Part shown: positions 27,955 through 60,738 of the stretch, piece by piece
Layout: each line of letters opens with the position of its first letter
Numbering within the stretch: the first letter of the stretch is position 1
NCBI RefSeq assembly: GCF_008065115.1
Contig: NZ_CP042913.1
Span: 1,090,338-1,154,337, forward strand
Direction: 5' to 3'
Source of the DNA: Bythopirellula goksoeyrii
GTDB taxonomy: Bacteria > Planctomycetota > Planctomycetia > Pirellulales > Lacipirellulaceae
Length of the DNA stretch: 64,000 nt
Position numbers and translations under genes: made by a program
Notes under the pieces: generated by a model
What the model saw: only the letters and a program-made list of their open reading frames with translations
Told to the model about the DNA's origin: nothing
The model's database searches: none

Positions 27955-28154
27955 GAGAAGAGGCTGTTGGGAAAACCCACAATGTGTTTTTGGCCAGTTG
28001 TCAATTTGGGGAATGAATTCTTTAACTCCCAAGTGTGCGATTCCGCACTCTCGATTGCCTTGCTCTTTGTGACATTGCCCCAACTTTCTATGGCTTCCAG
28101 AGGTTGTACTCACAGAATCGAGGTATCACTCGAGGGACTTGTCAAATTACAGCT

Positions 28155-28169
28155 TGGCACTAGAGTTGC
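28155..28169 (+). promoter_or_regulatory. Sigma-54-type -24/-12 motif
   Basis: The sequence TTGGCACTAGAGTTGC carries GG (28,156-28,157) and GC (28,168-28,169) exactly 12 nt apart, matching the TGGCAC-N5-TTGC consensus. The predicted transcription start is about 65 nt upstream of the stress-protein gene. The site at 57,734-57,749 is nearly identical. Confidence 0.6.
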
Positions 28170-28246
28170 GGTAATAGGCCAGATACCGAACTGGAAGACT
28201 TTATTGTTCCTGGCGGATGTCCCTTTTCAGCATAAGGAGCAGGGAG

Positions 28247-56494: not shown

Positions 56495-57496
56495 TCACTT
56501 TCCTAGCACAACCGCCGCCGCCACCAACGCTGCCAGCAACAAAAGCATGAAAGCAATTCGCTGCTTCGACGGACCCTCATTCGGCTGATCGTCTTCCAAC
56601 ACGGGGAGGTCCTGCGTGAGATGCGACAGGTCGGGACCGAATTCTTCGATGAGGTGGTCCTTCAAAATGCCCTGCACGGCTCGGGCGTTGAAGGGGCGGC
56701 GCTCGGGGTCCTTTTCTAGAAGTTGGAAAATCAACTTCTCCAACCATTCGGGGCAGTCGATGTCGCGCTCGCGGATTCCCGGGGGTTTGTCGTTGAGGTG
56801 CTGGCCCCAAACCTGGGCAAAGTTGGCTCCCATGAAAGGGGGTTTGCCGGTGAGCATCTCCATCATCACACAGCCCAGGGAATACAGATCGGCCTTGCCG
56901 GTAATTTCCTTGTCGCCACAGATCTGCTCGGGTGACATGTAGGCATAGGTGCCGACAGTAATTCCAGCGCCCGTGATGTCTGCCTCGTGGGTATCGCGAG
57001 CGATGCCGAAATCGCCCAACAAGAGCTTGCCCCCTTTGTCGAAAAACAGATTGCTGGTCTTGAGATCACGGTGGATGATGCCGTGGTTGTGGGCATGTTG
57101 GAGAGCTGAAGCAATTTGTGCAGCAAAGGCCGCCGTTTGTTCCCAGGTGAGGGGGCCGAACTTCTTGATGCGGTCTTTCAGTGTGCCGCTATCCAAGAGT
57201 TGCATCGCATAGAAATACTGGCCATCCATCATACCGCCGCCGTAATTGCGGACGATGTGAGGATGGTTGAGCCGTTCCATGATGACGATTTCTCGCTGGA
57301 AACGGTCAACGATATTCTCGTCGTGGGCAATCGTCGGGTGCAGTAGTTTGACAGCTACCGGCTCGCTGATATCAGGACTCTCGGCACGGTAGACGACACC
57401 TACAGTTCCGACACCCAAGGGTTCCAAGAGTTTGAAATTGGCCGAGGTCGGCAAGAACTTCAATTTGCGTTGCGGAGGAGTCGGAGTATCAGTCAT
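56495..57496 (-). CDS. Tail-anchored Ser/Thr protein kinase (PknB type)
   Basis: The 333-residue protein has a Gly-rich loop (LGVGTVGVVYRA), the ATP lysine in VAVKLLHP, catalytic HRDLKTSNL, DFG in LLGDFGIARD, and GTYAYMSPEQICG in the activation segment, so it should be active. A single hydrophobic helix at the very end (about 312-331, AFMLLLLAALVAAAVVL) anchors it in the membrane with the kinase domain inside. No PASTA or other external sensor domain is present. ATG 57,496 was chosen: the 57 residues encoded upstream look non-coding in style. It is convergent with the decarboxylase gene. Confidence 0.9.
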   Translation of the reverse strand: MTDTPTPPQRKLKFLPTSANFKLLEPLGVGTVGVVYRAESPDISEPVAVKLLHPTIAHDENIVDRFQREIVIMERLNHPHIVRNYGGGMMDGQYFYAMQLLDSGTLKDRIKKFGPLTWEQTAAFAAQIASALQHAHNHGIIHRDLKTSNLFFDKGGKLLLGDFGIARDTHEADITGAGITVGTYAYMSPEQICGDKEITGKADLYSLGCVMMEMLTGKPPFMGANFAQVWGQHLNDKPPGIRERDIDCPEWLEKLIFQLLEKDPERRPFNARAVQGILKDHLIEEFGPDLSHLTQDLPVLEDDQPNEGPSKQRIAFMLLLLAALVAAAVVLGK

Positions 57497-57733
57497 CTGG
57501 CTTGGAGCGGAATGGTTCGTTGGAGATGACAATCTTACTAGAGGACGATCCTGGGAAACAGAAAGGACTATACAGTGCTTGCCGTCCCGTTCGTAGTGCC
57601 TAGTGATAAGGCAGTCGATGCATTCTCGCCGTGCAAACAATGGCATCGCAAGATAATGCCACGTCATTCGCAGGAGATTTAAGTATAGGCCATATAACTG
57701 CTTAGGGAAAACACCAACTCCTTACATCGCGTT

Positions 57734-57749
57734 TGGCACTAGGGTTGCT
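57734..57749 (+). promoter_or_regulatory. Sigma-54-type -24/-12 motif upstream of GSII
   Basis: TTGGCACTAGGGTTGCT has GG at 57,735-57,736 and GC at 57,747-57,748, the correct 12-nt spacing. Nitrogen genes are often sigma-54 dependent. A start about 57,760 would give a leader of about 400 nt before ATG 58,166. Confidence 0.6.
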
Positions 57750-57877
57750 ATGGCTAAAACTGTCGCCGCTTCTGCGTAGAAATCCAGGAGTTGGCGGGAA
57801 TTAAAAGGCGGATTTCTAGGTTTCGTGGCAAACACTCCTATCCGAAGGGTGCTGAGCCGTCGCTTGTCTCCAAAAAA

Positions 57878-57959
57878 ACGGTTCAAAACCGTGGTTGTCG
57901 GAGTCTAGCGGCCAAGCACCATATTTTCTACGATATGGGCTTGTCCATAGGCCGCTAGA
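57878..57959 (+). promoter_or_regulatory. Structured leader of the GSII gene
   Basis: A short hairpin (ACGGTT/AACCGT, 57,878-57,892) precedes a longer one: TCTAGCGGCC (57,904-57,913) pairs perfectly with GGCCGCTAGA (57,950-57,959), and CATAT/ATATG plus AAGC/GCTT extend it inwards. It may be a regulatory RNA element or a REP-like palindrome; no known riboswitch is recognised. Confidence 0.45.
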
Positions 57960-58165
57960 GCGGTCAGGAACCGGCATATCCCATTTGACGGCCACAGTGG
58001 ATGAATTCACTGTTTGTCGAAGCGATATTAGGCTGTTGTCGGCTAAACGGAGGCGCACTCAGGTGTACGTTTGGCGAGGGGCGACCAAGGAGCGACAACA
58101 CACTTCTGCAAGGAAGCGAGTCATAACGGTTGTGTCCAATACATTTTCAGGAGTGTTACAGAAAA

Positions 58166-59155
58166 ATGAGTTACAAGTTAGAGTACATCTGGCTCGATGG
58201 TTACAAGCCTGAGCCCAGCATTCGTAGCAAGACCAAAATTGTCGACAGCAAACCCAACTCACCAGAGGAATGCCCAGGGTGGTCGTTTGACGGGAGCAGC
58301 ACCCAGCAAGCTGAGGGGCACAGTTCCGATTGCTTGTTGAAGCCGGTTCGCATTATCGACGACCCTGTTCGCAAGAATGCCTCTCTGGTTATGTGCGAAG
58401 TGCTGAATGCCGACGGTTCGGTCCATCCCTCCAATGGTCGTGGTACTTTTGAGGATGACCCCGATTTGTGGCTCGGCTTCGAGCAGGAATACACCATCAT
58501 GAAGAATGGCAAGCCACTTGGCTTCCCTGTGGATGGCTATCCTGGGCCGCAGGGTCCCTACTATTGCTCCGTTGGCATCATGAACTGCGTTGGTCGTGAC
58601 ATCGTTGAGGAGCACTTGGATGCTTGCCTCGAAGCCGGTCTCTCCGTCACGGGCATCAATGCCGAAGTAATGAAAGGCCAGTGGGAATACCAACTCTTTG
58701 GCAAGGGTGCCAAGCAGGCCTGTGATGATCTCTGGTTGAGCCGCTTCCTGTTGCATCGGGCTGGTGAAAAGCACCATGTCAACATCGAGCTCCATCCCAA
58801 GCCGATCAAGGGCGACTGGAACGGCAGTGGTATGCATACCAATTTCTCTACCACGCCAATCCGTGATAAAGGTGGCGAGGATATGATCAAAGGTATCTGT
58901 GAGAAGTTTAGTGCACGCCACAAGCAGCACATCGCTTCTTATGGCTCAGACAATGACCAGCGTCTGACCGGCTTGCACGAAACCCAGTCGATCGAGAAAT
59001 TCTCCTACGGAGTAAGCGATCGTGGTTCGTCGATCCGCATTCCAATCGGCACCGTCCAGAATGGCTGGAAAGGTTACTTGGAAGACCGCCGTCCAGCATC
59101 TAACGCAGATCCCTATAAAGTGGTTCGCGAGATCCTGGCAACCCTACGATCCTAA
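58166..59155 (+). CDS. glnII: Glutamine synthetase type II (GSII)
   Basis: The 329-residue protein matches the eukaryote-like GSII family: LEYIWLDGYKPEPSIRSKTK, PGWSFDGSSTQQAEGHSSDC, WLGFEQEYTIMKNGKPLGFP, AGLSVTGINAEVMKGQWEYQ, GDWNGSGMHTNFSTTPIR and GVSDRGSSIRIP, covering the glutamate, ammonium and ATP sites. It makes glutamine from glutamate, ammonia and ATP. GSII lacks the adenylylation site of GSI, so control is probably transcriptional. ATG 58,166 fits the family; AGGAG lies about 12 nt upstream, a rather long spacing. The gene ends at an intrinsic terminator before the GSI gene. Confidence 0.93.
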   Translation: MSYKLEYIWLDGYKPEPSIRSKTKIVDSKPNSPEECPGWSFDGSSTQQAEGHSSDCLLKPVRIIDDPVRKNASLVMCEVLNADGSVHPSNGRGTFEDDPDLWLGFEQEYTIMKNGKPLGFPVDGYPGPQGPYYCSVGIMNCVGRDIVEEHLDACLEAGLSVTGINAEVMKGQWEYQLFGKGAKQACDDLWLSRFLLHRAGEKHHVNIELHPKPIKGDWNGSGMHTNFSTTPIRDKGGEDMIKGICEKFSARHKQHIASYGSDNDQRLTGLHETQSIEKFSYGVSDRGSSIRIPIGTVQNGWKGYLEDRRPASNADPYKVVREILATLRS

Positions 59156-59307: not shown

Positions 59308-60738
59308 GTGTTGACGCCTCAAGATGTTTTGGCTCTCTGCCGCGAACGTGGTGTGCGCGCAGTCGACCTGCGGTTCATGGATTTTCCGGGTCTCTGGCAA
59401 CACTTCACAATTCCCATTCAGAAGCTTGAAGAAGAAATATTTGACGACGGACTGGGCTTCGACGGTTCCAGCATCCGGGGTTGGCAGGCCATCAACGAAA
59501 GCGACATGCTTCTGGTGCCGCAAGCCGAGACCGCCTTCATTGATCCATTCACCGAGATCACAACCCTTTGCATGATCTGCAATATCCAGGACCCCATCAC
59601 TCGCGAGGACTACACCCGTGATCCCCGCAACGTGGCCCGCAAGGCAGTGAATTACCTCAAAAGTACGGGCATCGCCGATACTTGCTACATCGGTCCCGAG
59701 GCCGAGTTTTTTGTGTTCGACGACATTCGATTTGATCAGGCACCACAGCACAGCTATTTCTTCATCGACAGTAGCGAAGCCCAATGGAATCGAGGAACGA
59801 ATACCAAAGCGTTGGGCGAGGGGCCCAATCTGGGCTACAAGCTGCGACACAAAGAGGGCTACTTTCCCGTGCCTCCTGCGGATCAACTGATGGATCTCCG
59901 CAACGAGATGATGATGGCAATGATCGAGTGTGGCTTGGACGTTGAAGCCCAGCATCATGAGGTTGCCACCGCAGGGCAATCAGAAATCGATCTCAAGTAT
60001 ACTGACCTGGTACAAATGGCCGACGACATGTGCCTCTTCAAGTACATCATCAAAAACGTGGCCTGGAAGCACAACAAGTCGGCCACCTTCATGCCCAAGC
60101 CACTCTACGGCGACAATGGTTCAGGCATGCACACGCACATCTCGCTGTGGAAAGGGGATCAGCCCCTCTTCGCTGGCGGAGGTTATGCCGGCTTGAGCGA
60201 CGAAGCTCTTTATGCCATCGGCGGCATCCTCACCCACGCCCCAGCCATCCTCGCGTTCACCAATCCTACCACGAACAGCTACAAGCGACTGGTCCCTGGC
60301 TACGAAGCACCAGTCAATCTAGCCTATTCTCAACGCAATCGCTCGGCTGCCTGTCGAATCCCCATGTACAGCCCCAGTCCAAAGGCGAAGCGGATCGAGT
60401 TCCGTTGCCCCGATCCGAGTTCCAATCCTTACCTGGCATTTTCCGCCTTGATGATGGCCGTGGTGGATGGAATCCAAAACAAGATCCATCCCGGCGAACC
60501 GCTCGATAAGGACATTTACGACATGGAACCTGAGGAACTGGCCAAAGTCCCCAGCACTCCTGGTTCCCTAGGCGAAGCCTTGGCCGCGCTATCCAAGGAT
60601 CACGAATTCCTCCTCCGCGGCGACGTGTTCACCCAGGACGTGATCAACACCTGGATCACCTACAAACAGAAAAACGAAGTCGAGGCCCTCGCTCTGCGTC
60701 CGCATCCGTATGAATTCTGCTTGTACTACGATATGTAG
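59308..60738 (+). CDS. glnA: Glutamine synthetase type I (GSI)
   Basis: The 476-residue protein is a full-length dodecameric [93 protein letters not shown] and [10 protein letters not shown]. The adenylylation loop is conserved ([11 protein letters not shown] with the tyrosine equivalent to Tyr397 of E. coli), so GlnE-type control is possible. The start is GTG at 59,308 with AAAGGGGA about 6 nt upstream. It makes glutamine, as does its GSII neighbour 150 bp upstream. No glnB, amtB or glnE gene lies in the window. Confidence 0.96.

Follow-up and report, generated by a model that had tools for sequence, protein, structure and literature searches.

The glnAp1/glnAp2 region of Escherichia coli carries NtrC sites upstream of a sigma-54 promoter, together with a sigma-70-type promoter. 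Patriarca 1992 and Martin 1988 reportedly treat the control of rhizobial glnII by NtrC and sigma-54, and Studholme and Dixon 2004 is said to deal with Pirellula. In the available portion of PMC10746234, rhizobial glnII is described as activated by NtrC. The E. coli NtrC consensus, TGCACCAnnnTGGTGCA, as given in the accessible part of PMC8743547, has the outer frame TGC-N11-GCA that is also seen in the dyads described below. The glnA RNA motif, RF01739, is a leader of nitrogen genes, including those of glutamine synthetase, found in cyanobacteria and marine samples (PMC2864571, portion available). The accessible sections of a 2025 survey of sigma-54 regulons (PMC12316311) place glutamine synthetase control primarily in Pseudomonadota, report limited conservation of NtrB/NtrC in Planctomycetota, and count glutamine synthetase-like proteins with the groups that are poorly characterised. 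For planctomycetes, literature on the promoters of glutamine synthetase, on sigma-54, and on riboswitches or leaders contained no title naming the present region among the matches listed, which were mostly outside subscription journals.

The DNA upstream of glnII in the planctomycete Bythopirellula goksoeyrii is reminiscent of the promoter systems described above. It occupies the 669 bp that separate a divergent Ser/Thr protein kinase gene from a glutamine synthetase gene (ATG at 58166) in the window, that is, the whole stretch of 64,000 nucleotides that was analysed. Judged from its conserved sites, this gap probably contains a dual-promoter control region for glnII, composed of an NtrC-class enhancer, a sigma-54 promoter, and a second promoter, P2. 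The features of the region are:

56498-57496, minus strand: Ser/Thr protein kinase gene, divergent, start taken as 57496
57597..57613, no strand assigned: enhancer dyad 1, TGCCTAGTGATAAGGCA (TGC-N11-GCA), in 19 of 19 leaders with a sigma-54 site
57619..57635, no strand assigned: enhancer dyad 2, TGCATTCTCGCCGTGCA, exactly 22 bp from dyad 1, in 19 of 19 leaders
57733..57749, plus strand: sigma-54 (-24/-12) promoter, TTGGCACTAGGGTTGCT, TTGGCAC-N5-TTGCT with no mismatch, predicted start ~57760 by convention
57806..57812, plus strand: AGGCGGA block, ~47 nt into the predicted sigma-54 transcript
57905..57938, plus strand: putative second promoter P2, CTAGCG-N18-TACGAT-ATGG, predicted start ~57941 by convention
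57904-57913 and 57950-57959, plus strand: arms of a 10-bp perfect inverted repeat, TCTAGCGGCC / GGCCGCTAGA, which spans P2 and is probably incidental
58035..58099, plus strand: hairpin GTTGTCG...CGACAAC, with a 7-bp outer stem (58035-58041/58093-58099)
58166..59155, plus strand: glnII, type II glutamine synthetase, 329 aa, with Pfam PF03951 and PF00120 over cut-off

The best family by far for the protein encoded at 58166 is NCBIfam NF041605 (GlnII), which it matches over residues 1-327 of 329 with 415 bits, under the 500 bits needed for that family. Its two nearest named relatives among the best 80 of 591 are a Pirellulaceae and a Planctomycetota MAG and are 77% identical. The gene that follows, at 59308, encodes a type I glutamine synthetase (GSI). 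For comparison, 43 genomes of the family were searched, 24 of which contain a glnII match at E<=1e-100. The 22 leaders that were kept all come from one family and are not independent; L126, in which the match begins at a contig edge, and L024, which is 63% identical, were left out. A kinase homologue is located upstream of glnII at all 22 loci and a GSI gene downstream at 21, with the contig of L008 stopping 339 nt past the match. The nearest relative of the window locus is L004, whose glnII is 97% identical.

The sequence-only reading had pointed to a sigma-54-type motif before a nitrogen gene, and this is confirmed, with its start corrected by one base: the open reading frame at 58166 is of the GlnII type, and a sigma-54-type site is present in 19 of the 22 family leaders, 173-643 nt before the start codon. 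TGG and TTGC are invariant across these 19 sites, which have the GG-N10-GC pattern of a -24/-12 element. Sites with at most one mismatch are found in 15 of the 22 leaders, compared with 13 of 2,200 first-order random sequences, and four of the 19 (L017, L019, L021, and L023) have two mismatches. The leaders L012, L013, and L016 have no site with fewer than three mismatches. RpoN is encoded in the genome (TIGR02395, 398.3 bits against a cut-off of 277).

The decisive part of the region is the pair of dyads upstream of this site, which the sequence-only reading overlooked. The pair, TGC-N11-GCA-N5-TGC-N11-GCA, lies upstream of the sigma-54 site in each of the 19 site-bearing leaders, and the distance from the start of dyad 1 to that site is 135-139 nt in 17 of them, 125 nt in L022, and 150 nt in L023. 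Such a pair occurs in 3 of 38,000 first-order random sequences of 400 nt and is unique in the 6.47-Mb genome. In the 43 family genomes it is found 52 times (one strand counted), 19 times at glnII and 33 times elsewhere, versus 16 occurrences of the reversed pattern. No pair is observed near glnII in G013, G017, and G029 (leaders L013, L016, and L012, respectively), although the L013 leader has one single dyad; the sigma-54 site and the pair are jointly missing near these three genes, and P2 is kept there. The 22-bp pair is likewise absent from all 81 further GlnII loci scanned in many phyla, among them L024, of the same family, and L046, 77% identical and of the same phylum. A sigma-54-like site with up to two mismatches is present in 19 of these 81 loci; L045, with 66 nt upstream only, was left out of the scan, and a few loci had less than 800 nt. 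Relative to the NtrC consensus, the outer TGC/GCA of the dyads is invariant, being also the search pattern itself, and the inner letters of dyad 1 favour TGCC...GGCA, not TGCAC...GTGCA. By eye, most of the 19 leaders show a further block of approximately ACTTAcGnnAAtC (CTGCTTAGGGAAAAC in the window, 57698-57712), located between dyads and promoter, some 30-35 nt before the sigma-54 site. The dyads are placed between the kinase gene and glnII and might serve both genes.

As read from their sequences, the dyads and the sigma-54 site share their anatomy, an NtrC-type enhancer plus a sigma-54 promoter, with glnA and glnII of proteobacteria. That they match by chance, in a long stretch between genes, is exceedingly improbable. 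The genome does contain ten perfect TTGGCACN5TTGC sites (three for the reversed pattern), several of them inside long open reading frames, but chance would have to account for a site in 19 of 22 leaders, the fixed 22-bp spacing of the dyads, and their near-constant distance from the promoter. Similar to glnAp1/glnAp2 of E. coli, two TGC-N11-GCA sites precede a -24/-12 promoter, and a promoter apparently of the sigma-70 type is also present. The main differences are that the gene encodes GlnII rather than GlnA, that the dyads are 22 bp apart, that the sigma-70-type promoter is downstream of the sigma-54 promoter, and that no protein exceeds the NtrC cut-off. With rhizobial glnII, as far as it is described in the available text of PMC10746234, the locus shares the gene type, an NtrC-type motif, and the sigma-54 signature; it differs in its planctomycete host, in the TGCC/GGCA tendency of dyad 1, in the extra CTAG promoter, and again in the missing NtrC match. 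There is strong reason to regard a sigma-54 promoter with NtrC-type tandem enhancers before glnII as an ordinary, known kind of control, and what is unusual is the CTAG promoter, along with the NtrC that is missing by cut-off. The classic control of glutamine synthetase by sigma-54 and tandem enhancers is hereby extended to a planctomycete lineage, with exact coordinates for a reporter test, and attention turns to two concrete points, the activator that would bind the dyads and the factor that would read CTAG.

The DNA itself shows conserved sites in a fixed arrangement and a gene for sigma-54, and from these features we infer the following course of events. An NtrC-class enhancer-binding protein would bind the tandem dyads, centred at about -155 and -133 relative to the predicted start, and the bound activator would open the RNA polymerase-sigma54 complex at the -24/-12 site through DNA looping and ATP hydrolysis. 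Nitrogen shortage would then lead to a sigma-54 transcript with a leader of ~406 nt. P2, presumably a sigma-70-type promoter located inside that leader, would give basal expression from a leader of ~225 nt.

The identity of the activator was approached through the NtrC equivalog, TIGR01818. No protein of the genome is over the cut-off (best 496.4 versus 558.6 bits), although there are 37 matches, 15 of them at E<=1e-55, and the cut-off is exceeded in none of ten family genomes. Enhancer-binding proteins of these ten genomes, 119 in all, were compared by reciprocal best hits; seven of the genomes have the module, and G013, G017, and G029 lack it. In this comparison, which includes genomes that are 76-83% complete, no group combines presence in all of the seven with absence from all of the three. 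The protein with the best NtrC score, L130 (496 bits), has no reciprocal best hit in the module-bearing genomes G001, G003, G008, and G012 but has one in G017 and G029, both of which lack the module; it was dropped as a candidate, its orthologs not tracking the module (in one of the comparisons at most 36 candidates per genome were scored). For L204, each of the seven genomes with the module gives a reciprocal best hit and G013 gives none, but G017 and G029 give one as well, and its group is mixed, in that the proteins of G003, G012, and G029 start with a receiver domain by eye. In L204 itself (C1:1259000-1260900 of the genome that holds the window, its start cut off in the stretch examined) and in the G001 protein, the N-terminal part appears by eye to be globin-like. 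For four proteins, L134, L135, L202, and L208, a reciprocal best hit was obtained in every one of the nine other genomes, so that they occur in all ten. Because loss of a cis site need not mean loss of the activator, these four are kept as activator candidates.

P2 was picked by score as CTAG-N20-TAnnAT plus nnGG, the permitted spacers being 16-20; a tie between two candidates in L016 was settled by eye in favour of the one at -400. The spacing is constant (18 after CTAGCG) in 21 of the 22 leaders, including the three that lack the sigma-54 site and the dyad pair, from which it follows that the two modules are separable. The exception is L008, which has only a weak candidate at -502, and L046 has no P2-type element with this spacing. 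The strict form CTAG-N20-TAnnAT is present in 19 of 22 leaders versus 22 of 6,600 random sequences, and with nnGG in 15 of 22 versus none of 6,600. In the -10 element, TAnnAT, the T, the A, and the final T are found in 21 of 21 chosen leaders and the second A in 20. A -35 hexamer of the TTGACA type is absent from P2, which has a CTAGCG-type element instead, and a sigma-70 scan does not report it. The narrower form CTAGCG-N17-19-TACGAT-NNGGG has a single match in the genome, at P2. On these sequence features, P2 resembles a basal promoter of the sigma-70 type whose -35 element is unusual.

The element could alternatively be the site of a dedicated regulator, or of an unrecognised sigma factor that reads CTAG, and not a basal promoter, a reading that we consider unlikely but worth keeping in view. 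It would fit the near-invariance of CTAG (C, T, and G invariant and A in 20 among the 21 leaders, which were chosen for the motif) and the conservation that continues beyond the -10 element to GG and TTG. CTAG-N20-TAnnAT has a single match in the window, P2, which would suit an uncommon promoter type there, but one match is also within chance, given 0.43 expected and 34 of 100 shuffles having one. The distance of 17 bp between TAG and the -10 hexamer, TAnnAT, agrees with ordinary sigma-70 spacing. A broader proposal, to which we give a rather low probability, joins such a reader to the activator question: an NtrC-like activator other than NtrC, near-dedicated to glnII, would recognise tandem TGCC-N9-GGCA-like dyads, and P2 (CTAG-N20-TAnnAT-nnGGnTTG) would be the target of a class-II activator or of a sigma factor not yet recognised.

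The leader downstream of the sigma-54 site is rich in hairpins. The 10-bp perfect stem named in the sequence-only reading is exact, and what that reading says of the sequence holds: in addition to the stems listed above, there is a 9-bp stem at 57777-57785/57810-57818, a 6-bp stem at 57994-57999/58008-58013, and an inner 8-bp stem of the 58035-58099 hairpin at 58042-58049/58068-58075. The proposal made from them, an undescribed regulatory RNA controlling GSII, is not supported as a family-wide RNA. That the leader is a structured regulatory RNA acting on glnII, riboswitch-like or through translational control, is in our judgement improbable. The segment 57762-58190 folds at -146.2 kcal/mol, better than 100 of 100 dinucleotide shuffles (mean -129.5, z -3.41), as such an RNA might, but single-leader folds do not amount to a common structure, every leader folding in its own way, and leaders of other subgroups vary in fold and in length (111-363 nt after P2). 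Rfam has no match at gathering score in the window, and at E<=10 only rox1 (E 7.9) appears in 57500-58250; the glnA RNA motif has no match here. RNAalifold yields no consensus structure for 21 gapless sequences around P2, where pairing in the ten best candidate helices is 46-61% versus 34-45% expected, a small raw excess. For the part after P2, nine sets of related leaders were scored by consensus energy (RNAalifold, column-shuffled controls), with z between -2.78 and +1.44; in four of these sets the reverse complement has the lower score, and the z of -2.78, for the pair L001/L004, has a reverse-complement counterpart of -2.23. Between the sigma-54 site and P2, four sets give z of -3.62 to -0.87, with the reverse complement lower in two. 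The alignment scores are thus mostly weak and strand-unspecific, and a terminator-like site was not found on the forward strand.

The stems were also searched for covariation, which turned up single double changes only, in one close pair. In L004, 7 of the 10 pairs of the 10-bp stem are kept (three unchanged, three wobble, and one changed on both sides), and three of the outer four pairs are broken. The left arm of this stem is the conserved CTAGCG element, so that conservation there needs no RNA. The 58035-58099 hairpin retains its outer 7 bp unchanged and 6 of its 8 inner pairs, with one double change, and is possibly the best candidate for a lineage-specific leader structure. Parts of the leader are also conserved more strongly than the gene's silent positions, which speaks for an RNA: between the window and L004, fourfold-degenerate sites are identical at 72 of 141 (51%), compared with 85%, 88%, and 93% identity in the 40-nt leader blocks at -200, -160, and -80 (55-80% in the other 40-nt blocks of the 680 nt compared). 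Similarly, the last 80 nt of L006 are 90-97% identical to those of L125 and L011, with fourfold sites at 77% and 79%, respectively. For L014/L015 the values are 65-80% over the last 240 nt and 53% at fourfold sites; L010/L020 and L012/L016 have no excess over fourfold sites near the gene. This excess may reflect further protein sites, translation signals, or lineage-specific RNA, and the hairpins look mostly incidental, as by-products of the leader and promoter sequence. In L006, L011, and L125, a CGCCC/GGGCG hairpin is seen just upstream of and in the conserved last ~80 nt.

The AGGCGGA block starts 55-90 nt downstream of the -24 element in 11 of the 19 leaders that have a sigma-54 site, versus 30 of 9,500 random sequences, the interval having been picked post hoc. 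Leaders judged by eye offer neither a common hairpin that would make it a loop motif nor a consistent start codon that would make it the ribosome site of a leader peptide. It was also rejected as a general element of sigma-54 leaders, GGCGGA being present within 250 nt downstream at two of the ten perfect genome sites, those of glnII and UspA; it starts at 28212, 58 nt after the start of the UspA site, compared with 74 nt in the glnII leader.

That second site had been noted earlier, near 28,155, as almost the same as the glnII site. It exists, at 28154-28170 (TTGGCACTAGAGTTGCG), with the second-best sigma-54 score in the window, but it precedes a universal stress protein (UspA-type) gene, and no TGC-N11-GCA dyad is present within 300 nt upstream. 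Its position fits the enrichment of UspA among Planctomycetia sigma-54 targets given in the accessible part of PMC12316311. Elsewhere in the genome, a perfect sigma-54 site, L292 (near C1:1608685), lies 172 nt before an open reading frame that is groEL-like by eye, in line with the chaperone enrichment that the same portion of the survey reports for Planctomycetota (PMC12316311).
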